DNA from: Paraburkholderia flava
Lineage (GTDB): Bacteria > Pseudomonadota > Gammaproteobacteria > Burkholderiales > Burkholderiaceae
DNA: 64,000 nucleotides
Direction of reading: 5' to 3'
NCBI RefSeq assembly: GCF_004359985.1
Contig: NZ_SMRO01000002.1
Span: 372,001 to 436,000, forward strand
A program made the translations under genes and the position numbers. Under the pieces are notes generated by a model. It did no database searches, was not told where the DNA came from, and saw only the letters and a list, made by a program, of their open reading frames with translations. Position 1 is the first letter of the stretch, and each line of letters starts with the position of its first letter. Positions 9,847 through 19,230 of this stretch are shown here, one piece after another.

Positions 9847-10258
9847 TAAGCGCGAATTTATTCGCGCGCGTTCTACGTCAATTCCGTATGCCGCGTGCGC
9901 TCCGCGATCCGCGTGAGTCTGTTCAGCCGCTGCCGCGCCTGTGCGATTCACGATCGCATGCATCGATACAAAAATACAAAACACGCAGCAGATCCCGGTG
10001 CCGCGTACCAATCGCAAGGGCATTCACCCCGTCGCGCTTCACTTCTATCTCATTAAGCGGAATGTGCCGTTTAGCGAATAAACTAAATTCGCAAACTTCG
10101 CTTGTTTAGCAAAACGAATAAACATAATGCGATAAGAATACATCGTTGACATTGGCAAATTACTCCGTCTAGACTGAGTTTAAATAGAATTCTTACACGC
10201 TTTTCACCACTAAATTGTTTAGGAAATCTACTAAACAAAGAATGAAAAGGAGACGGCA
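9847..10258. promoter_or_regulatory. AT-rich regulatory region upstream of the GH92 cluster
   Basis: About 410 bases without a gene; from about 10040 it is clearly more AT-rich than the rest of the window. It contains an inverted repeat GCGAAT/ATTCGC (10074-10079 and 10087-10092, with flanking GTTTA/AAAC symmetry). TTGTTTAG occurs at 10102-10109 and again at 10215-10222, the latter facing CTAAACAA at 10231-10238 as a perfect 8-base inverted repeat. These repeats around a good promoter suggest regulated expression of the mannosidase genes. Confidence 0.55.
10146..10175 (+). promoter_or_regulatory. Candidate sigma-70 promoter for the GH92 cluster
   Basis: Exact -35 TTGACA (10146-10151), 18-base spacer, -10 TAGACT (10170-10175; 4 of 6 consensus). 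Transcription would start near 10182, giving a leader of about 77 bases that includes the TTGTTTAG/CTAAACAA hairpin. Confidence 0.6.
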
Positions 10259-13213
10259 GTGAAAAGAAATCAGGAGATATTTGCGGCCCTGTTAATGCTC
10301 GGTGCATTGGCAGGATGCGGCGGCGACGTGCATTCGGGCAGCGGTCAGGCTGCGACGACGCCCGTGGTGACCGGCAGCGGATCCGCGCAGTCCGGATCGG
10401 CAGGCGGCAGCACGGGAAGCAGCAGCACCGGCGGTAGCAGCGGCAGCGGTACCGACACGGCACCGCCCGCCAACCTCGCGTTGACCCAGTACGTGAATCC
10501 GCTGATCGGCACGCTCGCGAGCAATTCGCCGAACCCGGTGCCTGCCGGACAGGCCGGCAGCGTAGTGCCGGCAGCGGGTCTGCCGTCGGGCATGGTGCAA
10601 TGGGCACCGGACACGAACACCGGCACGGCACCGTCGAACAGCAAGGAGCCCGGCTCTCCCGCGGGCTACTACTACGACCTGTCGAACATCCAGGGCTTCA
10701 GCCTCACACACATGAGCGGCGCCGGCTGCTCGGGCAACGACGGCGAGTTCCCCGTCATGCCGACCACCGATGCGACCCAGCTCGCGCCTTCGTTCAAGCA
10801 CACCAACGAACACGCGGCGGCCGGCTTCTACTCGGTCGTGCTGGACAGCGGCGTCAAGGTCGAACTCACCGCGACGCTGCGCACGGGCTTCGGACGCTTC
10901 ACGTATCCGGCTGCGAAGCCGTCGATCGTCGTGCTCGACACCACGCACACCAACACGAATTCGCAGGTAGCTGGTTCGGTGACGAAAGTGGCCACCGACA
11001 CGATCTCCGGCAGCACGACCGGCGGTGGCTTCTGCGGCAACTCGACTCAGGTGCCGGTCTACTTCTACGCGCAGTTCAGCCAGCCGTTCGATACGACGTC
11101 GTCGTTCAGCAACGGCCGCGCGGTGTTGAACTTCAAACCGGGCGCAACCGTGTTGATGAAGATCGGCATCTCGTACGTGAGCACCACAAACGCACAGGAC
11201 AATCTCGCGAAAGAAAACTCCGCGTGGGATTTCGACGGCATCAAGACGCTCGCCGACAGCGCATGGAACTCGCGCCTGAACGCGATTCAGGTGACCGGCG
11301 GCACGCCTGATTCGATGACGAAGTTCTACACCGCGCTCTATCACGCGCTGTGGGCACCGAGCGTGTTCAGCGATGCAAACGGTCAGTACCAGGGGTTCGA
11401 CAACACGGTTCATACCGTCGCATCGGGTCACGCGCAGTACACGAGCTTTTCGGGCTGGGACGTCTATCGCTCGCTGATTCCGTTGAAGGCGGTGTTGTTC
11501 CCTCAGGAAACCAGCGACATGATGCAGTCGCTCGTGAACGACGCCGATCAGTGCGGCGCGATTCCGCACTGGGTCAACGACAACGTCGAAGACGGCGTGA
11601 TGCCGGGCGATGCAGGCTCGGCGATGGTCGCGGGAGGCTATGCGTTCGGCGCGACGGCGTTCGACGCGCAAGGCGCGCTGAAGCACATGATCAAGATGGC
11701 GAACATTCCTGGCACTGCATGCCAGCAATCCGGGATGACGAGCTACGGTGGTCTGAACGACTTCCTGGGCCAAGGTCATCTGGTGCCTGGCGACGGCGTG
11801 TGGGGCGGAGCGTCGACGAATCTCGAATACACGAGCAGCCATTTCGCGATCTCGAGCCTCGCTGGTGCACTCGGCAACACTGCGATCCAGAAGATGATGC
11901 TCAGCCGCTCGGCCTACTGGCAGTACGTGCTGAACACGTCGCTCGCAACACCGCTTCTCGCTGCACGAAACGGCGACGGCAGCTGGACCTCGGAGGACCC
12001 TTCGAGCACCGACAACTACGTCGAAGGCAACGCCGAACAGTACACATGGATGGTGCCGTTCGACCCCGCCGGCCTCTTCGGACAACTCGGCGGCAACAGC
12101 GTCGTCGTGCCGCGTCTGAACAACTTCTTCACCGTGCTCAACGCCGGCATGAGCCTGCCCAATTTCTACATGGGCAACGAGCCGACTTTCGAAGTGCCGT
12201 GGCTGTACAACTGGGCCGGTTCGCCGTCCGGTACGCAGAACGTCGTCCAGCAGATCATGAACACGGCATTCAGCACGCAGCCCGATGGCTTGCCCGGCAA
12301 TGACGATCTCGGCGCTGTGTCGGGCTGGTATGTGTGGGGTGCGCTCGGGCTGTATCCGGAGATTCCGGCGGTCGGCGGTTTTGCGATCGGCAGTCCGCAG
12401 TTCCCGGCGATCGCGGTGCGTCTCGGCAACGGCAAGATGCTGAAGATTTCGGCACCCGATGCGCCCGCTTCGAACTACATCCAGAGCCTCACGGTGAACG
12501 GCACCGCGCAGACCAGCACGTGGCTGCCGCTCGCCGCGCTGAGCAACGGCGCGACGATGAACTTCACGATGGGTTCGGCGGCGTCGAGCTGGGGCACGGC
12601 AGCAAAGGACGCGCCGCCTTCGTTCGGCGTGCCGGTCGCGCTGAACGTCGCCGATGCGTTCAATAACCACGGCATCGCCACCGATGGCAGCGCAAACACC
12701 GACGGCACCGGCGCGGATTTCGACGGCGGTCTGTACGCGTACTCGTCGGCGGCGATGGCGGCGGCCGGCTGGAAAGCGGACCAGGCGTTCTCGTTCGACG
12801 GCGCGACCTTCACGGCGTCGGGCGGATCGATGCTCGATAACGCCGTCGCGGTCGGACAGACGATCACGCTGAGCCCCGCACAGCCCGGTAGCAATCTCGT
12901 CGTGCTGGGCGCTTCGAACAACGGGCCGAGCAGCGGCACCGCGCGTGTCAATTATTCGGACGGTACGTCGTCGACCTTCACGCTCGCATTCGACGACTGG
13001 ACGCTCAACGGCGGCAGCAAGACCGCGAGCGCCGACATCGCGCTGACGATGCCGTATCGCGACACCGGCAGCGGCCAGAAGGACAACACGAAGACCTATG
13101 TGTTCGCGGTCAAGGTGCCGCTGACGGCGGGCAAGACCGTCGCCAGCGTGACGCTGCCCCGGCAGGTGAATACCGGAAAGATGCACGTGTTCGGGATGGC
13201 GGTTGGGACGTGA
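10259..13213 (+). CDS. GH92-family alpha-mannosidase-like lipoprotein 1, with C-terminal beta-sandwich-like domain
   Basis: 984 aa. GTG start at 10259 with AAGGAG six bases upstream. Lipoprotein signal with lipobox LAGC (Cys20), then a Gly/Ser/Thr-rich linker to about residue 77, then a GH92 catalytic region. GH92 enzymes are calcium-dependent exo-alpha-mannosidases. Family blocks include YVNPLIGT, GMVQWAPDT, GFSLTHMSGAGCSGNDGEF, FSGWDVYRS, EGNAEQYTWMVPFD (Glu589) and GNDDLGAVSGWYVWGALGLYP (Asp682/Asp683), where characterised members have their catalytic acid and base. After about residue 790 comes an extra domain of about 190 aa (NNHGIATDG... to the end) that resembles the C-terminal sandwich of some actinobacterial GH92 proteins and may bind carbohydrate. 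Linkage specificity is unknown. Confidence 0.88.
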   Translation: MKRNQEIFAALLMLGALAGCGGDVHSGSGQAATTPVVTGSGSAQSGSAGGSTGSSSTGGSSGSGTDTAPPANLALTQYVNPLIGTLASNSPNPVPAGQAGSVVPAAGLPSGMVQWAPDTNTGTAPSNSKEPGSPAGYYYDLSNIQGFSLTHMSGAGCSGNDGEFPVMPTTDATQLAPSFKHTNEHAAAGFYSVVLDSGVKVELTATLRTGFGRFTYPAAKPSIVVLDTTHTNTNSQVAGSVTKVATDTISGSTTGGGFCGNSTQVPVYFYAQFSQPFDTTSSFSNGRAVLNFKPGATVLMKIGISYVSTTNAQDNLAKENSAWDFDGIKTLADSAWNSRLNAIQVTGGTPDSMTKFYTALYHALWAPSVFSDANGQYQGFDNTVHTVASGHAQYTSFSGWDVYRSLIPLKAVLFPQETSDMMQSLVNDADQCGAIPHWVNDNVEDGVMPGDAGSAMVAGGYAFGATAFDAQGALKHMIKMANIPGTACQQSGMTSYGGLNDFLGQGHLVPGDGVWGGASTNLEYTSSHFAISSLAGALGNTAIQKMMLSRSAYWQYVLNTSLATPLLAARNGDGSWTSEDPSSTDNYVEGNAEQYTWMVPFDPAGLFGQLGGNSVVVPRLNNFFTVLNAGMSLPNFYMGNEPTFEVPWLYNWAGSPSGTQNVVQQIMNTAFSTQPDGLPGNDDLGAVSGWYVWGALGLYPEIPAVGGFAIGSPQFPAIAVRLGNGKMLKISAPDAPASNYIQSLTVNGTAQTSTWLPLAALSNGATMNFTMGSAASSWGTAAKDAPPSFGVPVALNVADAFNNHGIATDGSANTDGTGADFDGGLYAYSSAAMAAAGWKADQAFSFDGATFTASGGSMLDNAVAVGQTITLSPAQPGSNLVVLGASNNGPSSGTARVNYSDGTSSTFTLAFDDWTLNGGSKTASADIALTMPYRDTGSGQKDNTKTYVFAVKVPLTAGKTVASVTLPRQVNTGKMHVFGMAVGT

Positions 13214-13401
13214 TGGTGGCGTCGTCGGATCGCGTGCGGTCGCTCGTGGAATAGAGCGGCCGCGCGTGACGCCGCAGCAGTGGGTGAGTAACAGTGAGAA
13301 GTGCTAGGGAGAAGTCCGGCTGCTGTGATTGAGAGCAGACCGGACGGACAAAACAATGAGGTGGCGCGAGGAATGGGCGCCGCCGACCGCTGTGCATGGG
13401 A

Positions 13402-13431
13402 CCAGAGTAAGCGCTAAAGCGCTAACTCTGG
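13402..13431. repeat. Near-perfect 30-base palindrome between GH92 genes 1 and 2
   Basis: Outer arms CCAGAGT/ACTCTGG enclose two copies of AGCGCT, itself self-complementary, around a short centre. The AAGCGCT half resembles LacI-family operators, but it could also act as an RNA hairpin 25 bases before the next gene. It is not followed by a T-run, so it is not an intrinsic terminator. Confidence 0.6.
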
Positions 13432-13455
13432 TCGACAGCTGGCCAGGAGACGAGG

Positions 13456-15837
13456 ATGAAACCAATACGCACACTGATACTGCGCGTGTCCGCCGCCGCC
13501 ATCACGGCGGCATTAATGAGCGCATGCGGAGGCGGCGTCGACAGCACGGCCATTCGCACCGGCAACGCCGTGAGTCCATCGATCGATACGCCGGCGAACA
13601 GCACAGCACCCGCGACCGGCGCGCCAGCGAGTGGCGCATCGTCGCCGGTGGTGGTCGCGAAGGATCTGCAACTGACCCAATACGTCGATCCATTGATCGG
13701 CACGCTCGCGAGCAACTCGCCGAACCCGGTGCCCGCGGGTCAGGCCGGCAGCGTGATACCTGCTGCGGGACTGCCTAACGGAATGGTGCAGTGGGCACCC
13801 GACACGAACACCACGCCAGCCCCGTCGACCAGCGCCGAACCCGGTTCGCCCGCCGGCTACTACTACGATCTGAAGACGATCAAGGGCTTCAGCCTGATGC
13901 ATATGAGCGGCGCCGGCTGCGGCGGCAACGGCGGCGAATTCCCGGTGATGCCGAGGACCGACACCGGCAAGCTCCTGCCCGGCTTCAGTCACGACAACGA
14001 GCACGCGGCGCCGGGTTATTACTCGGTCAAGCTCGACAACGGCATCAAGGTCGAACTGACCGCGACGCTGCGTACTGGCTTCGGACGCTTCACGTACCCC
14101 GCTGGGCAACCGTCGATTCTCGTGCTCGACGCGACGAGCACCAACACGAAGTCGCACACGACCGGCACCGTGACGGGCATCTCCGCGAACGAACTGCAAG
14201 GCAGTACGACGAGCCAGGGTTTCTGCAATCACACCACGCCGGTCACCGTCTATTTCGATGCGGTGTTCGATCAGCCGTTCGATGCAGCGTCGCCGATTGA
14301 GAACGGCAAGGCCGAGTTGCATTTTGCACCCGGCGCAACGGTGCAGATGAAAATCGGCATCTCGTTTGTGAAGGACCATGCGAAGCTGAACCTGACCACC
14401 GAGACGAAAGATCTGAAGTGGGACTTCGACGCAACCCGCAAAGCCGCCGACGCAACATGGAACAGCCGCCTCAACGCAATTCAGGTGACAGGCGGCACCG
14501 ACGACGACAAGAAGAAGTTCTACACCGCGCTGTATCACACGCAGTGGTCGCCGAGCGTGTTCAGCGATGTCGACGGCAGCTACATCGGCTTCGACCAGAA
14601 GACTCATAAGGTCGCCGCCGGCCACGCGCAATACACCAACTACTCCGGCTGGGACATCTACCGCTCGCTGATTCCGTTGAAGGCGCTGCTGTTCCCGCAG
14701 GAAACCAGCGACATGATGCAGTCGCTGATCAACGACGCCGACCAGTGCGGCGCGATTCCGCGCTGGGTCAACTACAACGTCGAGACCGGTGTGATGCCGG
14801 GCGATTCCGGTTCGTTGATGGTCGCGGGCGGGTACGCGTTCGGCGCGAAGGACTTCGATACGCAGGGCGCACTGAAACACATGATGACCGTCGCGAACGT
14901 GCCGGGCACTAAATGCCAGGGCGACACGACCGCCGAAGGACGCGGCAGCTACCTGAAGTATCACTACATGACAGAGGACGAAAATGGCTGGGGACCTGCG
15001 TCGTCCACACTCGAATACGCGAGCACTGACTTCGCGATGGCGCAGTTCGCCGGTGCGCTCGGCAATACGGCGTTCCAGACGACCGAACTGCAACGTTCCG
15101 GCTACTGGGCGAATCTGCTCAACACGTCCGCGACGCCGCCGCTGATCACGCCACGCGACGACAGCGGCAACTGGCTCTCGCCGGACAACAGCGCGTACGT
15201 CGAAGGCAACGCGGAGCAGTACACGTGGATGGTGCCGCACGACGTCGGCGGGCTGTTCGCGAAACTCGGCGGAAATGCGGTCGTCGTCGCGCGGCTCGAC
15301 AAGTTCTTCTCGCAACTCAATGCGGGCACCACGCAGCCCAACTTCTACATGGGCAACGAACCGACCTTCACGGTGCCGTGGCTCTACAACTGGGCGGGTT
15401 CGCCATCGGGCACGCAGCGCGTCGTCCGCCAGATCATGACGACCGTCTTCAGCACGAAGCCCGATGGCCTGCCGGGAAACGACGATCTCGGCGCGGTGTC
15501 GGGATGGTACGTGTGGGGTGCGCTGGGGTTGTATCCGGAGATTCCGGGTGTCGGCGGGCTCGCGATCGGCAGTCCGCAGTTCGACTCGATTGCGGTGAGG
15601 CTCGGTAACGGCAAGACGTTGCAGATCGATGCGCCCGGCGCGTCGTCGACGTCGAACTATGTGCAGAGCCTGAGCATCGATGGTGCGGCTCACACGAGCA
15701 CGTGGCTGTCGCTCGATGCACTGACGAACGGCGCGTCGATGAAATTCACGATGGGCACCGCGCCGTCGACGTGGGGCACGCAGGCTTCGGATGCGCCGCC
15801 TTCGTTTGCGGCTCCGGCTGCGTCGGGTTCGCAGTAG
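13456..15837 (+). CDS. GH92-family alpha-mannosidase-like lipoprotein 2
   Basis: 793 aa. The ATG follows AGGAGACGAGG. Lipoprotein signal ends LMSAC (Cys24), with a Pro/Ala/Ser/Thr-rich linker to about residue 73. The catalytic region is closely related to the preceding gene: YVDPLIGTLASNSPNPVPAG, GMVQWAPDT, GFSLMHMSGAGCGGNGGEF, YSGWDIYRSLIPLKA, EGNAEQYTWMVPHD (Glu583) and GNDDLGAVSGWYVWGALGLYP (Asp676/Asp677). It lacks the C-terminal extra domain of gene 1. Patches of near-identical DNA shared with gene 1 point to tandem duplication. It is probably anchored in the outer membrane and trims alpha-mannosides outside or in the periplasm. Confidence 0.88.
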   Translation: MKPIRTLILRVSAAAITAALMSACGGGVDSTAIRTGNAVSPSIDTPANSTAPATGAPASGASSPVVVAKDLQLTQYVDPLIGTLASNSPNPVPAGQAGSVIPAAGLPNGMVQWAPDTNTTPAPSTSAEPGSPAGYYYDLKTIKGFSLMHMSGAGCGGNGGEFPVMPRTDTGKLLPGFSHDNEHAAPGYYSVKLDNGIKVELTATLRTGFGRFTYPAGQPSILVLDATSTNTKSHTTGTVTGISANELQGSTTSQGFCNHTTPVTVYFDAVFDQPFDAASPIENGKAELHFAPGATVQMKIGISFVKDHAKLNLTTETKDLKWDFDATRKAADATWNSRLNAIQVTGGTDDDKKKFYTALYHTQWSPSVFSDVDGSYIGFDQKTHKVAAGHAQYTNYSGWDIYRSLIPLKALLFPQETSDMMQSLINDADQCGAIPRWVNYNVETGVMPGDSGSLMVAGGYAFGAKDFDTQGALKHMMTVANVPGTKCQGDTTAEGRGSYLKYHYMTEDENGWGPASSTLEYASTDFAMAQFAGALGNTAFQTTELQRSGYWANLLNTSATPPLITPRDDSGNWLSPDNSAYVEGNAEQYTWMVPHDVGGLFAKLGGNAVVVARLDKFFSQLNAGTTQPNFYMGNEPTFTVPWLYNWAGSPSGTQRVVRQIMTTVFSTKPDGLPGNDDLGAVSGWYVWGALGLYPEIPGVGGLAIGSPQFDSIAVRLGNGKTLQIDAPGASSTSNYVQSLSIDGAAHTSTWLSLDALTNGASMKFTMGTAPSTWGTQASDAPPSFAAPAASGSQ

Positions 15838-15893
15838 TCGCGGCACCGACTGCCGTACTTCTAAAAACAACGATCGACAAACAGCATCGGACA

Positions 15894-15924
15894 CGACCCC
15901 GCACGCGGCAAAGCGTGCGGGTCG
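15894..15924 (+). other. Strong hairpin in the GH92 gene 2-gene 3 spacer
   Basis: CCCGCACGC/GCGTGCGGG (15898-15906 and 15913-15921) with a 6-base loop, and further pairing outward with one bulged base. No T-run follows, so it may be an mRNA-stabilising or processing element rather than a terminator. Confidence 0.5.
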
Positions 15925-15974
15925 TCGCGATCGTCGAGCGACATCGTACCGATGCATTAAACAGGGAGGTGGAC

Positions 15975-18623
15975 ATGAAAAATCTGCTGAAGCTCGCGAT
16001 AGTCGTCGCGAGCATGGCGGCACTCACGGGTTGCGGAGGCGACGTTGGATCGTCGCAGTCCGCGACGCATACGAGCGGGAGTAACGGAGCAGGGTCGGTA
16101 AGCGGAGGCGCGGGAACGCCGGTTGGCTCTGGCGGTAATTCGACCGGCAGCAACCCGCCGGTGGTCACGCCTCCGGTGACCCGCACCGACATTGCCGGCC
16201 TGACGAAATTCGTCAACGTGTTCATCGGCACCGATACGCCGGATACGGGTCTCTCGGGCTATCCCGGCAACCTCAACCCGGGAGCGCAGACGCCGTTCGG
16301 CATGGTGAGCTTCGGTCCGGACACACCCGGCAGCAGGTCGCCGTACGGGGCGGGCTCGGGCGGTTACTTCTATGAAGATTCGAGCATCGACTTCTTCAGC
16401 CTCACGCATCTGAATGGTCCAGGCTGCCGGGGGCAGGGCGCGGTCGCGATGATCCCCGGTGGGGGCCAACTGACCTTCTCGCATGCGGACGAAAGCGCAT
16501 CGCCTGGCTACTACAAGGTGAAGACCGGCAACGGCATCGTCAACGAATTCACCGCGACGACGCGCACCGGCATGGCTCGCTTGACCTTCCCGGCGGGGTC
16601 GACGCCGACGCTTGTCGTCAACGCGCTGAAGAGCAACGGAATGAAGAGCGGTGTGTCGTCATCGCTCGTGAACATCGCCGTCGATACAACGGCCGGTGTG
16701 GTGTCCGGTCAAACGGTGGTCGGTGCGTTCTGCGGCGGGACCTGGTACAAGCCGGTGTACTTCTACATCGTCTTCGATACCGCGTTCGATCCGACGAAGA
16801 CCAAGTCGTCGAACGGCGTCGCGACGCTTACGTTCCAGCCCGCGGCTGCCGGTGCCGCGACGGTCGTGCAGGTCAAGGTCGGTATCTCGTCGGTCAGCGT
16901 CACCAACGCGAAGCTGAATCTGACGACGGAAAACCCGAACTGGTCGTTCGATACCGTTCGCACGAATCAGGATGCGATCTGGAATCACCGGCTCAACACC
17001 GTGCAGCTCGATCTTGCGCAGAGTGGCGCGATCACGAGTCTCGGTTCGAAGGCGCAGGCCGCGACCAACTACGTGACGCAGTTCTACACGGCGCTCTATC
17101 ACACGATGACGGGCCCCACGATCTATAGCGACGTCAACGGCGATTACCGAAGCATGCAGCAGGCCAATCTTGGCGCGCCCGGCAACACGGCACCGGGACG
17201 TCCGACCGCAAACGTCTCGCAATATCCGGTGCCCGGCAACGCGAATGCGTACAAGGCGCACTACTCAGGCTTCTCGATGTGGGACACGTATCGTTCGGAG
17301 ACGCAATTGCAGGCGCTGCTGTTTCCGACCGAAACGAGCGACATGATGCAGTCGCTCGTCGCCGACGCGAAGCAATGCGGCGCGCTCCCGCACTGGGTCG
17401 ACGGCAGCGACGACACCAGGCCGATGGAAGGCGACCACGCGCCGAACGTGATCGCGGGTGCTTACGCGTTCGGCGCGCGTTCGTTCGATACGACGACCGC
17501 GCGCAAGTACATGCTGCAATCGGCGTTCGGCACGGGCGGTCCGGGCAGTGCGTTTGTCGAAGGTCAGTGCAACGACCAGCCGAGCGTCGACTGGACGAAC
17601 GGGTCGAGCAGCGTCGGTAGTTTCTATCTGAAGAACGGCTACGTTTCCACCGATCTTTCGGTCAATCATCACTCGGGTTCTGTCACCCTGGAGATGGGCA
17701 CGACGGACGAATCGATCGGCAACTTCCTTGCCGCGCTCGGCCAGACCGGCGATGCAAGCACTGTCACGACGTTGCACAAACGGGCCGCCGCCTGGGCCAA
17801 CATCTTCGACGCGAACATTCCCGCGAGCCAGAACTACTTCGGCGTGACGAAGGGACTCGTGCCGAAGACTTCGAGCGGGCAATGGGTGTTCAACGATCCG
17901 CAGAACGGCGGCTTCCACGAATCGACCGAGCCGAACTACATCTGGACGATCGGCCACGACTACACGGCGCTGAACGCGGCGCTCGGCGGCAACACGGCGG
18001 CGATCACGCAGCTGAATGCGCTGTTCGGACTGGACGCGAGCAATCCGTATGGCGGCGCGCTGCCAAGTCCGCAAACGCTGAACAGCGGAGAGGGCGGCAG
18101 CACGCTGTACATTGGTAACGAGCCGTCGTTGCAAACGCCGTGGGCCTACAACTGGACCGGCACGCCGCAGCTCACGCAGCGTGTGATCCCGATCGTGATG
18201 CAGCAGACCTTCGCCAACGACCCAGGCGGCCTGCCCGGCAACGACGACATGGGCGCGACGTCCGGCTGGTATCTGTGGGCGAGCCTCGGGCTGTATCCGG
18301 TGATTCCGTCGGCACCCGGTCTCGCGATGTCGACGCCGCAGTTCAAGGGGATGACCGTGTGGCTCGCCGACGGCACGAAGAAGCTGCGCATCGAAGCCGA
18401 CGACGAAGCGTTGTTGAACACAAAGCCGTACATCAAGTCGGTGCAGCTGAACGGCAAGACGTATCAGGGATCGTGGCTGCCGCTCGCGGCAATTGCGAAC
18501 GGCGGTACGTTGACCTACACGCTGTCGGCGACGCCGACCGACTGGGCGACCGGCGCCGCGCTCGCGCCGCCGTCCGGACCGGGCGCGGACTATACGAAGG
18601 CACTCGCGACGCCGCAGCCTTGA
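15975..18623 (+). CDS. GH92-family alpha-mannosidase-like lipoprotein 3 (divergent)
   Basis: 882 aa. Start at the ATG behind GGGAGGTGGAC. Lipobox LTGC (Cys20) and a Gly/Ser/Thr-rich linker to about residue 70. GH92 layout is retained: FVNVFIGTDTPDTG, GYPGNLNPGAQTPFGMVSFGP, FFSLTHLNGPGCRGQG, FSMWDTYRSE, and GNDDMGATSGWYLWASLGLYP (Asp757/Asp758). The EGNAxQYTWMVP block of its two neighbours is replaced by HESTEPNYIWTIGHD (Glu649, Glu652), and it has insertions around residues 340-430 and 510-600. It therefore belongs to a different GH92 subgroup and may take another linkage or a substituted mannose. Lies 137 bases after gene 2 and is followed by a terminator. Confidence 0.85.
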   Translation: MKNLLKLAIVVASMAALTGCGGDVGSSQSATHTSGSNGAGSVSGGAGTPVGSGGNSTGSNPPVVTPPVTRTDIAGLTKFVNVFIGTDTPDTGLSGYPGNLNPGAQTPFGMVSFGPDTPGSRSPYGAGSGGYFYEDSSIDFFSLTHLNGPGCRGQGAVAMIPGGGQLTFSHADESASPGYYKVKTGNGIVNEFTATTRTGMARLTFPAGSTPTLVVNALKSNGMKSGVSSSLVNIAVDTTAGVVSGQTVVGAFCGGTWYKPVYFYIVFDTAFDPTKTKSSNGVATLTFQPAAAGAATVVQVKVGISSVSVTNAKLNLTTENPNWSFDTVRTNQDAIWNHRLNTVQLDLAQSGAITSLGSKAQAATNYVTQFYTALYHTMTGPTIYSDVNGDYRSMQQANLGAPGNTAPGRPTANVSQYPVPGNANAYKAHYSGFSMWDTYRSETQLQALLFPTETSDMMQSLVADAKQCGALPHWVDGSDDTRPMEGDHAPNVIAGAYAFGARSFDTTTARKYMLQSAFGTGGPGSAFVEGQCNDQPSVDWTNGSSSVGSFYLKNGYVSTDLSVNHHSGSVTLEMGTTDESIGNFLAALGQTGDASTVTTLHKRAAAWANIFDANIPASQNYFGVTKGLVPKTSSGQWVFNDPQNGGFHESTEPNYIWTIGHDYTALNAALGGNTAAITQLNALFGLDASNPYGGALPSPQTLNSGEGGSTLYIGNEPSLQTPWAYNWTGTPQLTQRVIPIVMQQTFANDPGGLPGNDDMGATSGWYLWASLGLYPVIPSAPGLAMSTPQFKGMTVWLADGTKKLRIEADDEALLNTKPYIKSVQLNGKTYQGSWLPLAAIANGGTLTYTLSATPTDWATGAALAPPSGPGADYTKALATPQP

Positions 18624-18713
18624 AGCGTTGAATCGACGCACTGCATCCGCGCGGGTTCGAAGCGCGGGTGTGGTGGGAGTGGTGGCCAGCAGCCTGACCC
18701 GTGGCTGGCTTTG

Positions 18714-18748
18714 AAACCCTGGCGGGGTGACTCGCTGGGGTTTTTTTC
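18714..18748 (+). terminator. Terminator of the GH92 cluster
   Basis: AAACCCTGGCG pairs with CGCTGGGGTTT (two G-U pairs in RNA) across an 8-base loop, followed by a run of seven T (18742-18748), about 90 bases after the third GH92 stop. Confidence 0.85.
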
Positions 18749-18864
18749 TTGCGTCGCTCATCGTGCGACGGTCGCGATAGTTGCGTTGCGGCGGTCGACC
18801 GGCTGCGGCGGCGCGCTGCGGTATGATGGCCGCACGCCTTTTTCACTTTCCACTTTCCCGTCGC

Positions 18865-19230
18865 ATGTCTTCGTTGTGGCGAATCCTCGTTGTGCTGTCG
18901 ATCGCGCTGCTGTTCACGCAGCGCGTGTCCGCACACGAACAAGACGTGCAGCGTATCGCCGTCAACAACGGTGCGCAGGTCTCTCATCGCATCGCGACGG
19001 CGGAACACGAGCACCGCGTGTCACATCTGTCCGCGCATTGCGACATGCTCCACTGTGTATGCGGTCACGCGTCGTGTTGCGCGACGATGTGCGGTGCGCA
19101 TTGCGGCGCATTGTTTGTCGCGTGGCGCTTCGAACCGTGGACGCCCGATGCATCGTTGCCGTCTTCCGCTACTGGTCCTTATCGCGCAGGCATTTCGCAC
19201 GCGCCGCCGCTGCGTCCGCCGATCGTTTGA
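18865..19230 (+). CDS. Small Cys/His-rich exported protein upstream of the copper oxidase (CopL/DUF2946-like)
   Basis: 121 aa from the ATG at 18865; start uncertain, as no Shine-Dalgarno is evident and an upstream in-frame ATG exists near 18823. Residues 1-23 form a signal peptide ending VSAHE. The mid part packs seven Cys and many His into HCDMLHCVCGHASCCATMC and GAHC, a likely copper-binding cluster; the C-terminus is Pro-rich. It lies 187 bases upstream of the multicopper oxidase in the same direction. Similar Cys-rich ORFs precede copper-resistance genes in other proteobacteria (CopL, DUF2946 leaders). Assignment to either family is by pattern and position only. Confidence 0.6.
   Translation: MSSLWRILVVLSIALLFTQRVSAHEQDVQRIAVNNGAQVSHRIATAEHEHRVSHLSAHCDMLHCVCGHASCCATMCGAHCGALFVAWRFEPWTPDASLPSSATGPYRAGISHAPPLRPPIV

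Follow-up and report, generated by a model that had tools for sequence, protein, structure and literature searches.

The closest described systems are the mannan and N-glycan systems of Bacteroides thetaiotaomicron, in which one operon supplies three GH92 enzymes that work sequentially on high-mannose N-glycan (PMC10154615) and which include endo-enzymes and glycan import, the plant N-glycan system of Xanthomonas campestris, which forms one cluster, and the ManR-type LacI regulons, which join a LacI-family regulator to mannose or mannoside genes (five groups in PMC4052901). Here we analyze a stretch of 64,000 nucleotides from Paraburkholderia flava (contig NZ_SMRO01000002.1, positions 372,001–436,000, forward strand), named the window, which carries three consecutive GH92 genes, g1, g2, and g3. 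It is probable that they are part of a mannoside regulon scattered over the genome: a distant core LacI repressor, encoded together with an isomerase, would control the trio and other GH92 cassettes of patchy distribution via GTTTAG-N8/9-CTAAAC operators borne by those cassettes. This reading is built on sequence: the gene families, the conserved catalytic residues, the conservation and placement of the operators, and the linkage of regulator and isomerase. No description of such an operon or regulon was retrieved by a literature search, which left subscription papers mostly outside its reach.

The three genes of the trio are the following:
10259–13213, + strand: g1, GTG start, 984 amino acids, GH92 lipoprotein-like
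13456–15837, + strand: g2, ATG start, 793 amino acids, GH92 lipoprotein-like, catalytic core only
15975–18623, + strand: g3, ATG start, 882 amino acids, GH92 lipoprotein-like, second clade
All three encode complete GH92 proteins. Nearly the whole of the two Pfam profiles is matched above the curated cut-offs, with 180, 183, and 139 bits for PF17678 and 445, 480, and 382 bits for PF07971 in g1, g2, and g3, respectively, and TIGR01180 exceeds its cut-off in each; NF035929 ("lectin_1") also matched GH92 proteins, with a score below cut-off. The preliminary description of the locus, made from the letters alone, had proposed three consecutive GH92 genes in a betaproteobacterium and a profile search to verify them; the profile matches in all three proteins and the Paraburkholderia host bear it out on both counts. 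The same holds for its lipoprotein-like signals: the N-termini, judged by eye, carry putative lipoboxes with their cysteine in all three proteins (LAGC, MSAC, and LTGC), followed by Gly/Ser/Thr-rich linkers. The start of g3 was set at 15975, the mechanical open reading frame (ORF) start at 15702 being too early. A C-terminal β-rich domain of g1, coded by approximately 12641–13210, has no Pfam match.

The best PDB relative of all three proteins is BT3130 (6F8Z), with 322, 329, and 251 bits for g1, g2, and g3, respectively, followed by B035DRAFT_03340 (7ZGM) with 306, 305, and 213 bits, the α-1,4 enzyme BT3965 (6F91) with 248, 252, and 149 bits, and the α-1,2 enzyme BT3990 (2WVX) with 229, 244, and 134 bits. 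The catalytic positions, taken from alignment to 6F8Z and 2WVX, are invariant among 14 aligned proteins: the general acid Glu (Glu535 of BT3130) and the base Asp (Asp637, within the NDD motif), whose roles in GH92 enzymes have been described (PMC5930347, PMC12858847). In BT3990, the α-1,2 determinants are the His584-Glu585 loop and Trp88 (PMC5930347, PMC12858847, PMC10167667); BT3990 is taken here, as in other papers, to be the 2wvx/2ww1/2ww3 sequence, PMC5930347 assigning 2wvy to it. When g2 is aligned to 2WVX, the His-Glu pair of the 580-loop is missing, a Gly stands at the Trp88 position, and the triad is NDD, not DED; g1 and g3 were judged for the α-1,2 motifs through their alignment to g2. 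An NDD or NED triad is reported for α-1,3 enzymes and DED is characteristic of α-1,2 enzymes (PMC12858847), and the +1 residues differ between the two α-1,3 enzymes BT3130 and 7ZGM (PMC9522356). Because both α-1,2 specificity motifs are missing, the trio proteins look like α-1,3/complex-mannoside exo-mannosidases, which we put as a lean, and the α-1,2 activity initially put forward for assay is unlikely.

Operator-like palindromes, given without strand, and a promoter precede g1:
10069–10083: site C, short operator-like palindrome GTTTA-N5-TAAAC
10104–10123: site A, operator-like palindrome GTTTAGCAAAACGAATAAAC, one mismatch to TGTTTAG-N8-CTAAACA
10146–10175, + strand: sigma-70-type promoter TTGACA-18-TAGACT, 10 of 12 matches, between sites A and B
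10217–10236: site B, operator-like palindrome GTTTAGGAAATCTACTAAAC, in the presumed 5' leader
Sites A and B follow GTTTAG-N8-(C/A)TAAAC and flank the promoter at a distance of 113 bp. Four of the six GTTTAG/CTAAAC half-sites of the window fall within 229 bp 5' of g1, a number reached by none of 2000 shuffles of this segment, and site B is the sole exact GTTTAG-N8-CTAAAC in the 6.97-Mb genome. The same site-promoter-site layout, with the starts of A and B 110 to 113 bp apart, recurs at five further Paraburkholderia GH92 loci that occupy different genome positions (L069, L012, L068, L074, and L072), and one palindrome with a half-site was seen at five of the six single-gene GH92 loci compared, the half-site not being found at L016. 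Across 45 sequences of at least 9 kb (950 kb including the window, some genomes being present twice), 27 of 29 matches to GTTTA-N8..12-TAAAC lie at most 500 bp 5' of a GH92 gene; of the other two, one stands 529 bp 5' of a GH92 gene whose called start may be off and one 5' of the LacI gene of Collimonas humicola. In the genome of the window, the N8 pattern with at most two mismatches occurs at four places, three of them before GH92 genes.

The trio had first been read as a self-contained mannoside-trimming set without any regulator, which would be constitutive and leave the palindromes incidental. The identified flanking genes, all of other families, indeed include neither a transporter nor a regulator next to the trio, and this part of the reading stands. 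The palindromes, however, are kept at other GH92 loci and are rare elsewhere, and those upstream of g1 match the ones 5' of an operon for a LacI regulator and an isomerase at another place in the genome. The claim that the set is self-contained is thus unsupported as regards its regulator, and we regard a constitutive set as very improbable.

The lacI gene of that operon lies on another contig (G000:C3:537324–538304). Its product is orthologous to a Collimonas protein (61%, E 8e-127; next best, 34%) and carries PF00356 and a Peripla_BP sugar-binding domain above their cut-offs, as do the Collimonas and Variovorax orthologues; the NCBIfam equivalog cut-offs of named LacI-type regulators are not reached. 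An N9 palindrome stands 5' of the gene and a gene of the AGE family follows it. The AGE protein (PF07221, 371 bits) is mannose-isomerase-like by family, and its nearest solved sequences are 3gt5 and 5x32, the latter of which we take to be a D-mannose isomerase. Immediately 5' of the operon, on the same strand, is a gene for a methyl-accepting chemotaxis receptor (L114:11466–13052, – strand).

The association of operator, regulator, and isomerase extends well beyond this genome. The LacI protein is present in 116 of 117 genomes of the genus, and at the 30 loci fetched (the best 30 of 117 matches) GTTTAGTAAAA forms one palindrome half and the isomerase gene lies 3' of lacI on the same strand, both in 30 of 30. 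A perfect palindrome (N8 or N9) was found in 109 of the 117 genomes, at 122 places versus 46 for the reversed control by table tally. Among the 75 of these places that are listed, 66 stand 154 to 214 bp 5' of lacI, a position that suggests autoregulation, five stand before GH92 genes, and four elsewhere. In a sample of the order, the regulator was recovered at E ≤1e-80 in 9 of 199 other genomes, with the isomerase adjoining in eight of the nine and palindrome-like sites 5' of the regulator gene in three. At two Collimonas and two Variovorax loci lacI adjoins GH92 pairs, a third Collimonas locus beginning at the isomerase; in C. humicola the row reads lacI, AGE isomerase, and two GH92 genes.

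A fourth GH92 gene of the genome (L038:8360–10765) is preceded by a one-mismatch site at C3:1095273 and followed by a GH2 gene. The closest PDB match of the GH2 protein is the exo-β-glucosaminidase 2VZO (186 bits), followed by the GH2 entry 9NFE (162 bits), with β-mannosidases at 146 bits or less. Homologous GH2 genes adjoin GH92 in Burkholderia singularis (L027) and Burkholderia sp. TSV86 (L028). A GH2 enzyme cleaving Man-β-GlcNAc would fit N-glycan use, the nearer relative by sequence being the glucosaminidase.

Several observations weigh against a LacI-controlled mannoside regulon. With at most two mismatches allowed, the reversed-pattern control gives eight places in the genome versus the four found for N8, and three versus the seven found for N9; single sites with two mismatches are therefore at chance level. 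The site was not found before GH92 genes in Burkholderia (L011, L018–L022, L024, L025, L027, L028, L033, and L035), in Variovorax and Collimonas sp. OK412, and at the Paraburkholderia loci L076–L079, which carry other GH92 clades. Since LacI occurs in 116 and GH92 in 23 of the 117 genomes, the co-occurrence of the two genes is uninformative. The likeness of the trio to characterized GH92 enzymes is distant (251–329 bits at best), and the AGE protein reaches 214 bits with the D-mannose isomerase model NF051846, whose cut-off is 600 bits. Finally, the motif in the genus listing shows no conserved central CG, and its spacer is either N8 or N9, whereas most LacI-family motifs are palindromes of even length centered on CG and a minority do without it (PMC4052901). 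This last point would suit another regulator that binds these operators and acts on the lacI-isomerase operon as well as on the GH92 genes, the target of the LacI protein being a different one. Such a regulator would have to be reconciled with the palindrome standing 154 to 214 bp 5' of lacI at most of the listed places (66 of 75) and with the adjacency of lacI to GH92 genes in two other genera, and we consider it improbable.

A wider regulon was also considered, including a gspD secretin gene, a chemotaxis receptor gene, an S10-carboxypeptidase-like gene, and others; the additional N8/N9 sites with at most two mismatches occur at about the control frequency, and it is not claimed. The weak operator-like sites in question, at chance frequency and functionally suggestive, stand before gspD (L115:9345, G000:C2:2315344), the chemotaxis receptor gene (L194, G000:C1:1890304), and the S10-carboxypeptidase-like gene (L196, G000:C1:2334052).

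For the LacI-controlled regulon that we favor, we infer binding by the LacI protein, its inducer, and looping, as well as the linkage specificity, location at the cell surface, and natural substrate of the GH92 enzymes and the activity of the isomerase; the system could operate as follows. The trio operon would produce exo-α-mannosidases that are outer-membrane or surface lipoproteins, inverting and Ca-dependent by family, and that would clip terminal, probably α-1,3-type, mannose off glycoprotein or mannan glycans. The LacI repressor would bind the operators before its own operon, the GH92 trio, and the fourth GH92 gene, and, when uninduced, keep the lacI-isomerase and GH92 operons low; repression by looping between A and B is possible because these two main sites bracket the promoter at a distance of 113 bp. 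Mannose released by basal amounts of the enzymes would enter via a putative transporter and be sensed, mannose or an early product would lift the repression of both operons, and the AGE-family protein would isomerize the mannose to fructose. The initial suggestion that released mannose is used by transporters elsewhere thereby divides: use elsewhere gains support, since a predicted isomerase is encoded beside lacI, and the transporter does not, none having been found and none searched for genome-wide.

As to the target, a genome search found no GH76 endo-mannanase, so that end-trimming is likelier than degradation of a mannan backbone. The lack of GH76 would also agree with a bacterial exopolysaccharide or the cell's own mannose polymer as the substrate, instead of fungal or plant glycoproteins, and a Paraburkholderia-like metagenome-assembled genome with eight GH92 ORFs was enriched on a mannose-containing acidobacterial exopolysaccharide (PMC7265232). 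Two points argue weakly the other way: a role in N-glycan use is conceivable for the GH92-GH2 pair, which has a similar site upstream, and Collimonas, described as fungus-feeding (PMC4690342), has related GH92 pairs. We consider an exopolysaccharide or self-made polymer unlikely. Within the LacI-controlled regulon, we tentatively propose, at somewhat less than even chances, a "plug-in" organization: a near-universal LacI and isomerase hub would be joined by extracellular GH92 (and GH92-GH2) cassettes that are gained and lost among strains and genome sites and bring operator pairs, so that every new cassette would come under mannose control with no need for a linked regulator or transporter, the set of this genome perhaps stripping fungal or plant glycoproteins.

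GH92 was found in 23 of the 117 genomes of the genus searched, 22 of them above the family cut-off, and its occurrence in the genus is therefore real and patchy. The trio is flanked on one side by a pseudouridine synthase gene and icd and on the other by a small gene, a multicopper oxidase gene, a cold-shock protein gene, clpS, and clpA. No SusC/SusD gene adjoins it, the neighbors on both sides being of other families (the rest of the window and the genome were not searched for them). In 18 other genomes of the genus, from the sample of relatives, icd was found, and the 1.5 kb retrieved past it hold no GH92 match: eight have the small gene and/or the multicopper oxidase gene there (G009 in fragments), five a cold-shock gene or clpS-clpA, and five none of these in reach. 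In the window, the distance from icd to the small gene is about 9 kb, the trio thus forming an insert between them. The small gene, a Cys/His-rich ORF (18781–19230) 5' of the multicopper oxidase gene, has no Pfam match and is matched at 30 to 38% identity in several of the relatives; it is perhaps a copper-related partner.

A tree of 37 GH92 proteins, in which long branches (G075, L059, L030, L031, and others; L059 is from G106) are unsure, resolves two old clades, one of the g1/g2 type and one of the g3 type. Adjacent pairs drawn from both clades occur in P. acidicola, G049, G059, Burkholderia stagnalis, Burkholderia sp. SRS-46, Collimonas, and Variovorax, and divergent pairs in B. singularis and Burkholderia sp. 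TSV86. Identity between the g1 and g2 proteins is 65% across the full alignment and 69% within the shared core, but each of the two has a closer relative, at 78 to 80%, in another genome. In the tree, G049a and P. acidicola cluster with g1 (100/100), G059a with g2 (100/100), and G049b and P. acidicola with g3 (88/85). Tandem duplication as the origin of the trio is unsupported, each of its genes grouping with genes of other genomes, and the closer relatives elsewhere indicate that the trio is a composite. Its types are found elsewhere as pairs, g1 with g3 in G049 and P. acidicola, and g2 with a more distant g3-clade gene in G059. Two further GH92 matches, one with an internal TGA in G105 (L060, G105:C14:115256–116026) and one divided between reading frames in Variovorax sp. 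E3 (L036:8528–12798), look like either decayed copies or assembly errors.

The other transcription signals and hairpins of the trio are:
13400–13433, + strand: hairpin just 5' of the g2 start, from fold computation
15893–15925, + strand: hairpin between g2 and g3, from fold computation
18713–18744, + strand: intrinsic terminator-like stem of 14 pairs with a T run, –23.4 kcal/mol, z –4.3
The region scores two promoter-like sites versus 1.6 expected by chance and eight terminator-like sites versus 8.4 expected, the stem at 18713–18744 being the longest. The intergenic gaps measure 242 bp (g1–g2) and 137 bp (g2–g3), each with a stable hairpin without a T run. One promoter and one terminator had been assigned to the three genes: a good promoter and a terminator-like stem are in place, and a single g1-g2-g3 transcript, with hairpins in both gaps, is plausible. 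The hairpin element at 13392–13438 recurs at L114:742 (– strand), with similar flanks (TGCATGGGACC...GGTCGACA) and a covarying stem, and both copies stand directly before the starts of two different ORFs of the same genome. The window copy has no Rfam match at gathering score; a dispersed 5'-leader or repetitive extragenic palindrome (REP)-like element is possible.

These findings suggest that a glycan-utilization system outside Bacteroidota can be dispersed yet coherent, and that a reading of gene neighborhoods alone misses the regulator of such a system. The named regulator, operator sites, and target enzymes form a directly testable set, and give a starting point for asking how Paraburkholderia from soil and plants might exploit mannoglycans of fungi, plants, or bacteria.

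Compared with BT3130 and B035DRAFT_03340 of Bacteroides, the trio shares the two-domain GH92 architecture, the acid Glu and base Asp, the NDD triad, and the lack of the α-1,2 motifs, but is distant in sequence, has no adjacent SusCD, and, in g1, carries the extra C-terminal domain. Unlike the B. thetaiotaomicron systems, it has neither endo-enzymes nor glycan import adjacent, its predicted regulator would act in trans, and no GH76 was found in the genome; unlike the single cluster of X. campestris, the Paraburkholderia genes are dispersed over contigs. With ManR-type regulons it would share the LacI-family regulator of mannose or mannoside genes, whereas its operator lacks a conserved central CG and has N8/N9 spacing; in the parts of the LacI survey available, Burkholderiales are mentioned for the sucrose regulator alone (PMC4052901). 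A further close counterpart is the LacI-isomerase-GH92-GH92 row of Collimonas, with an orthologous regulator (61–62%), the isomerase (70–72%), and both GH92 clades: there the genes are contiguous, whereas in the genome of the window the same parts are split over contigs.

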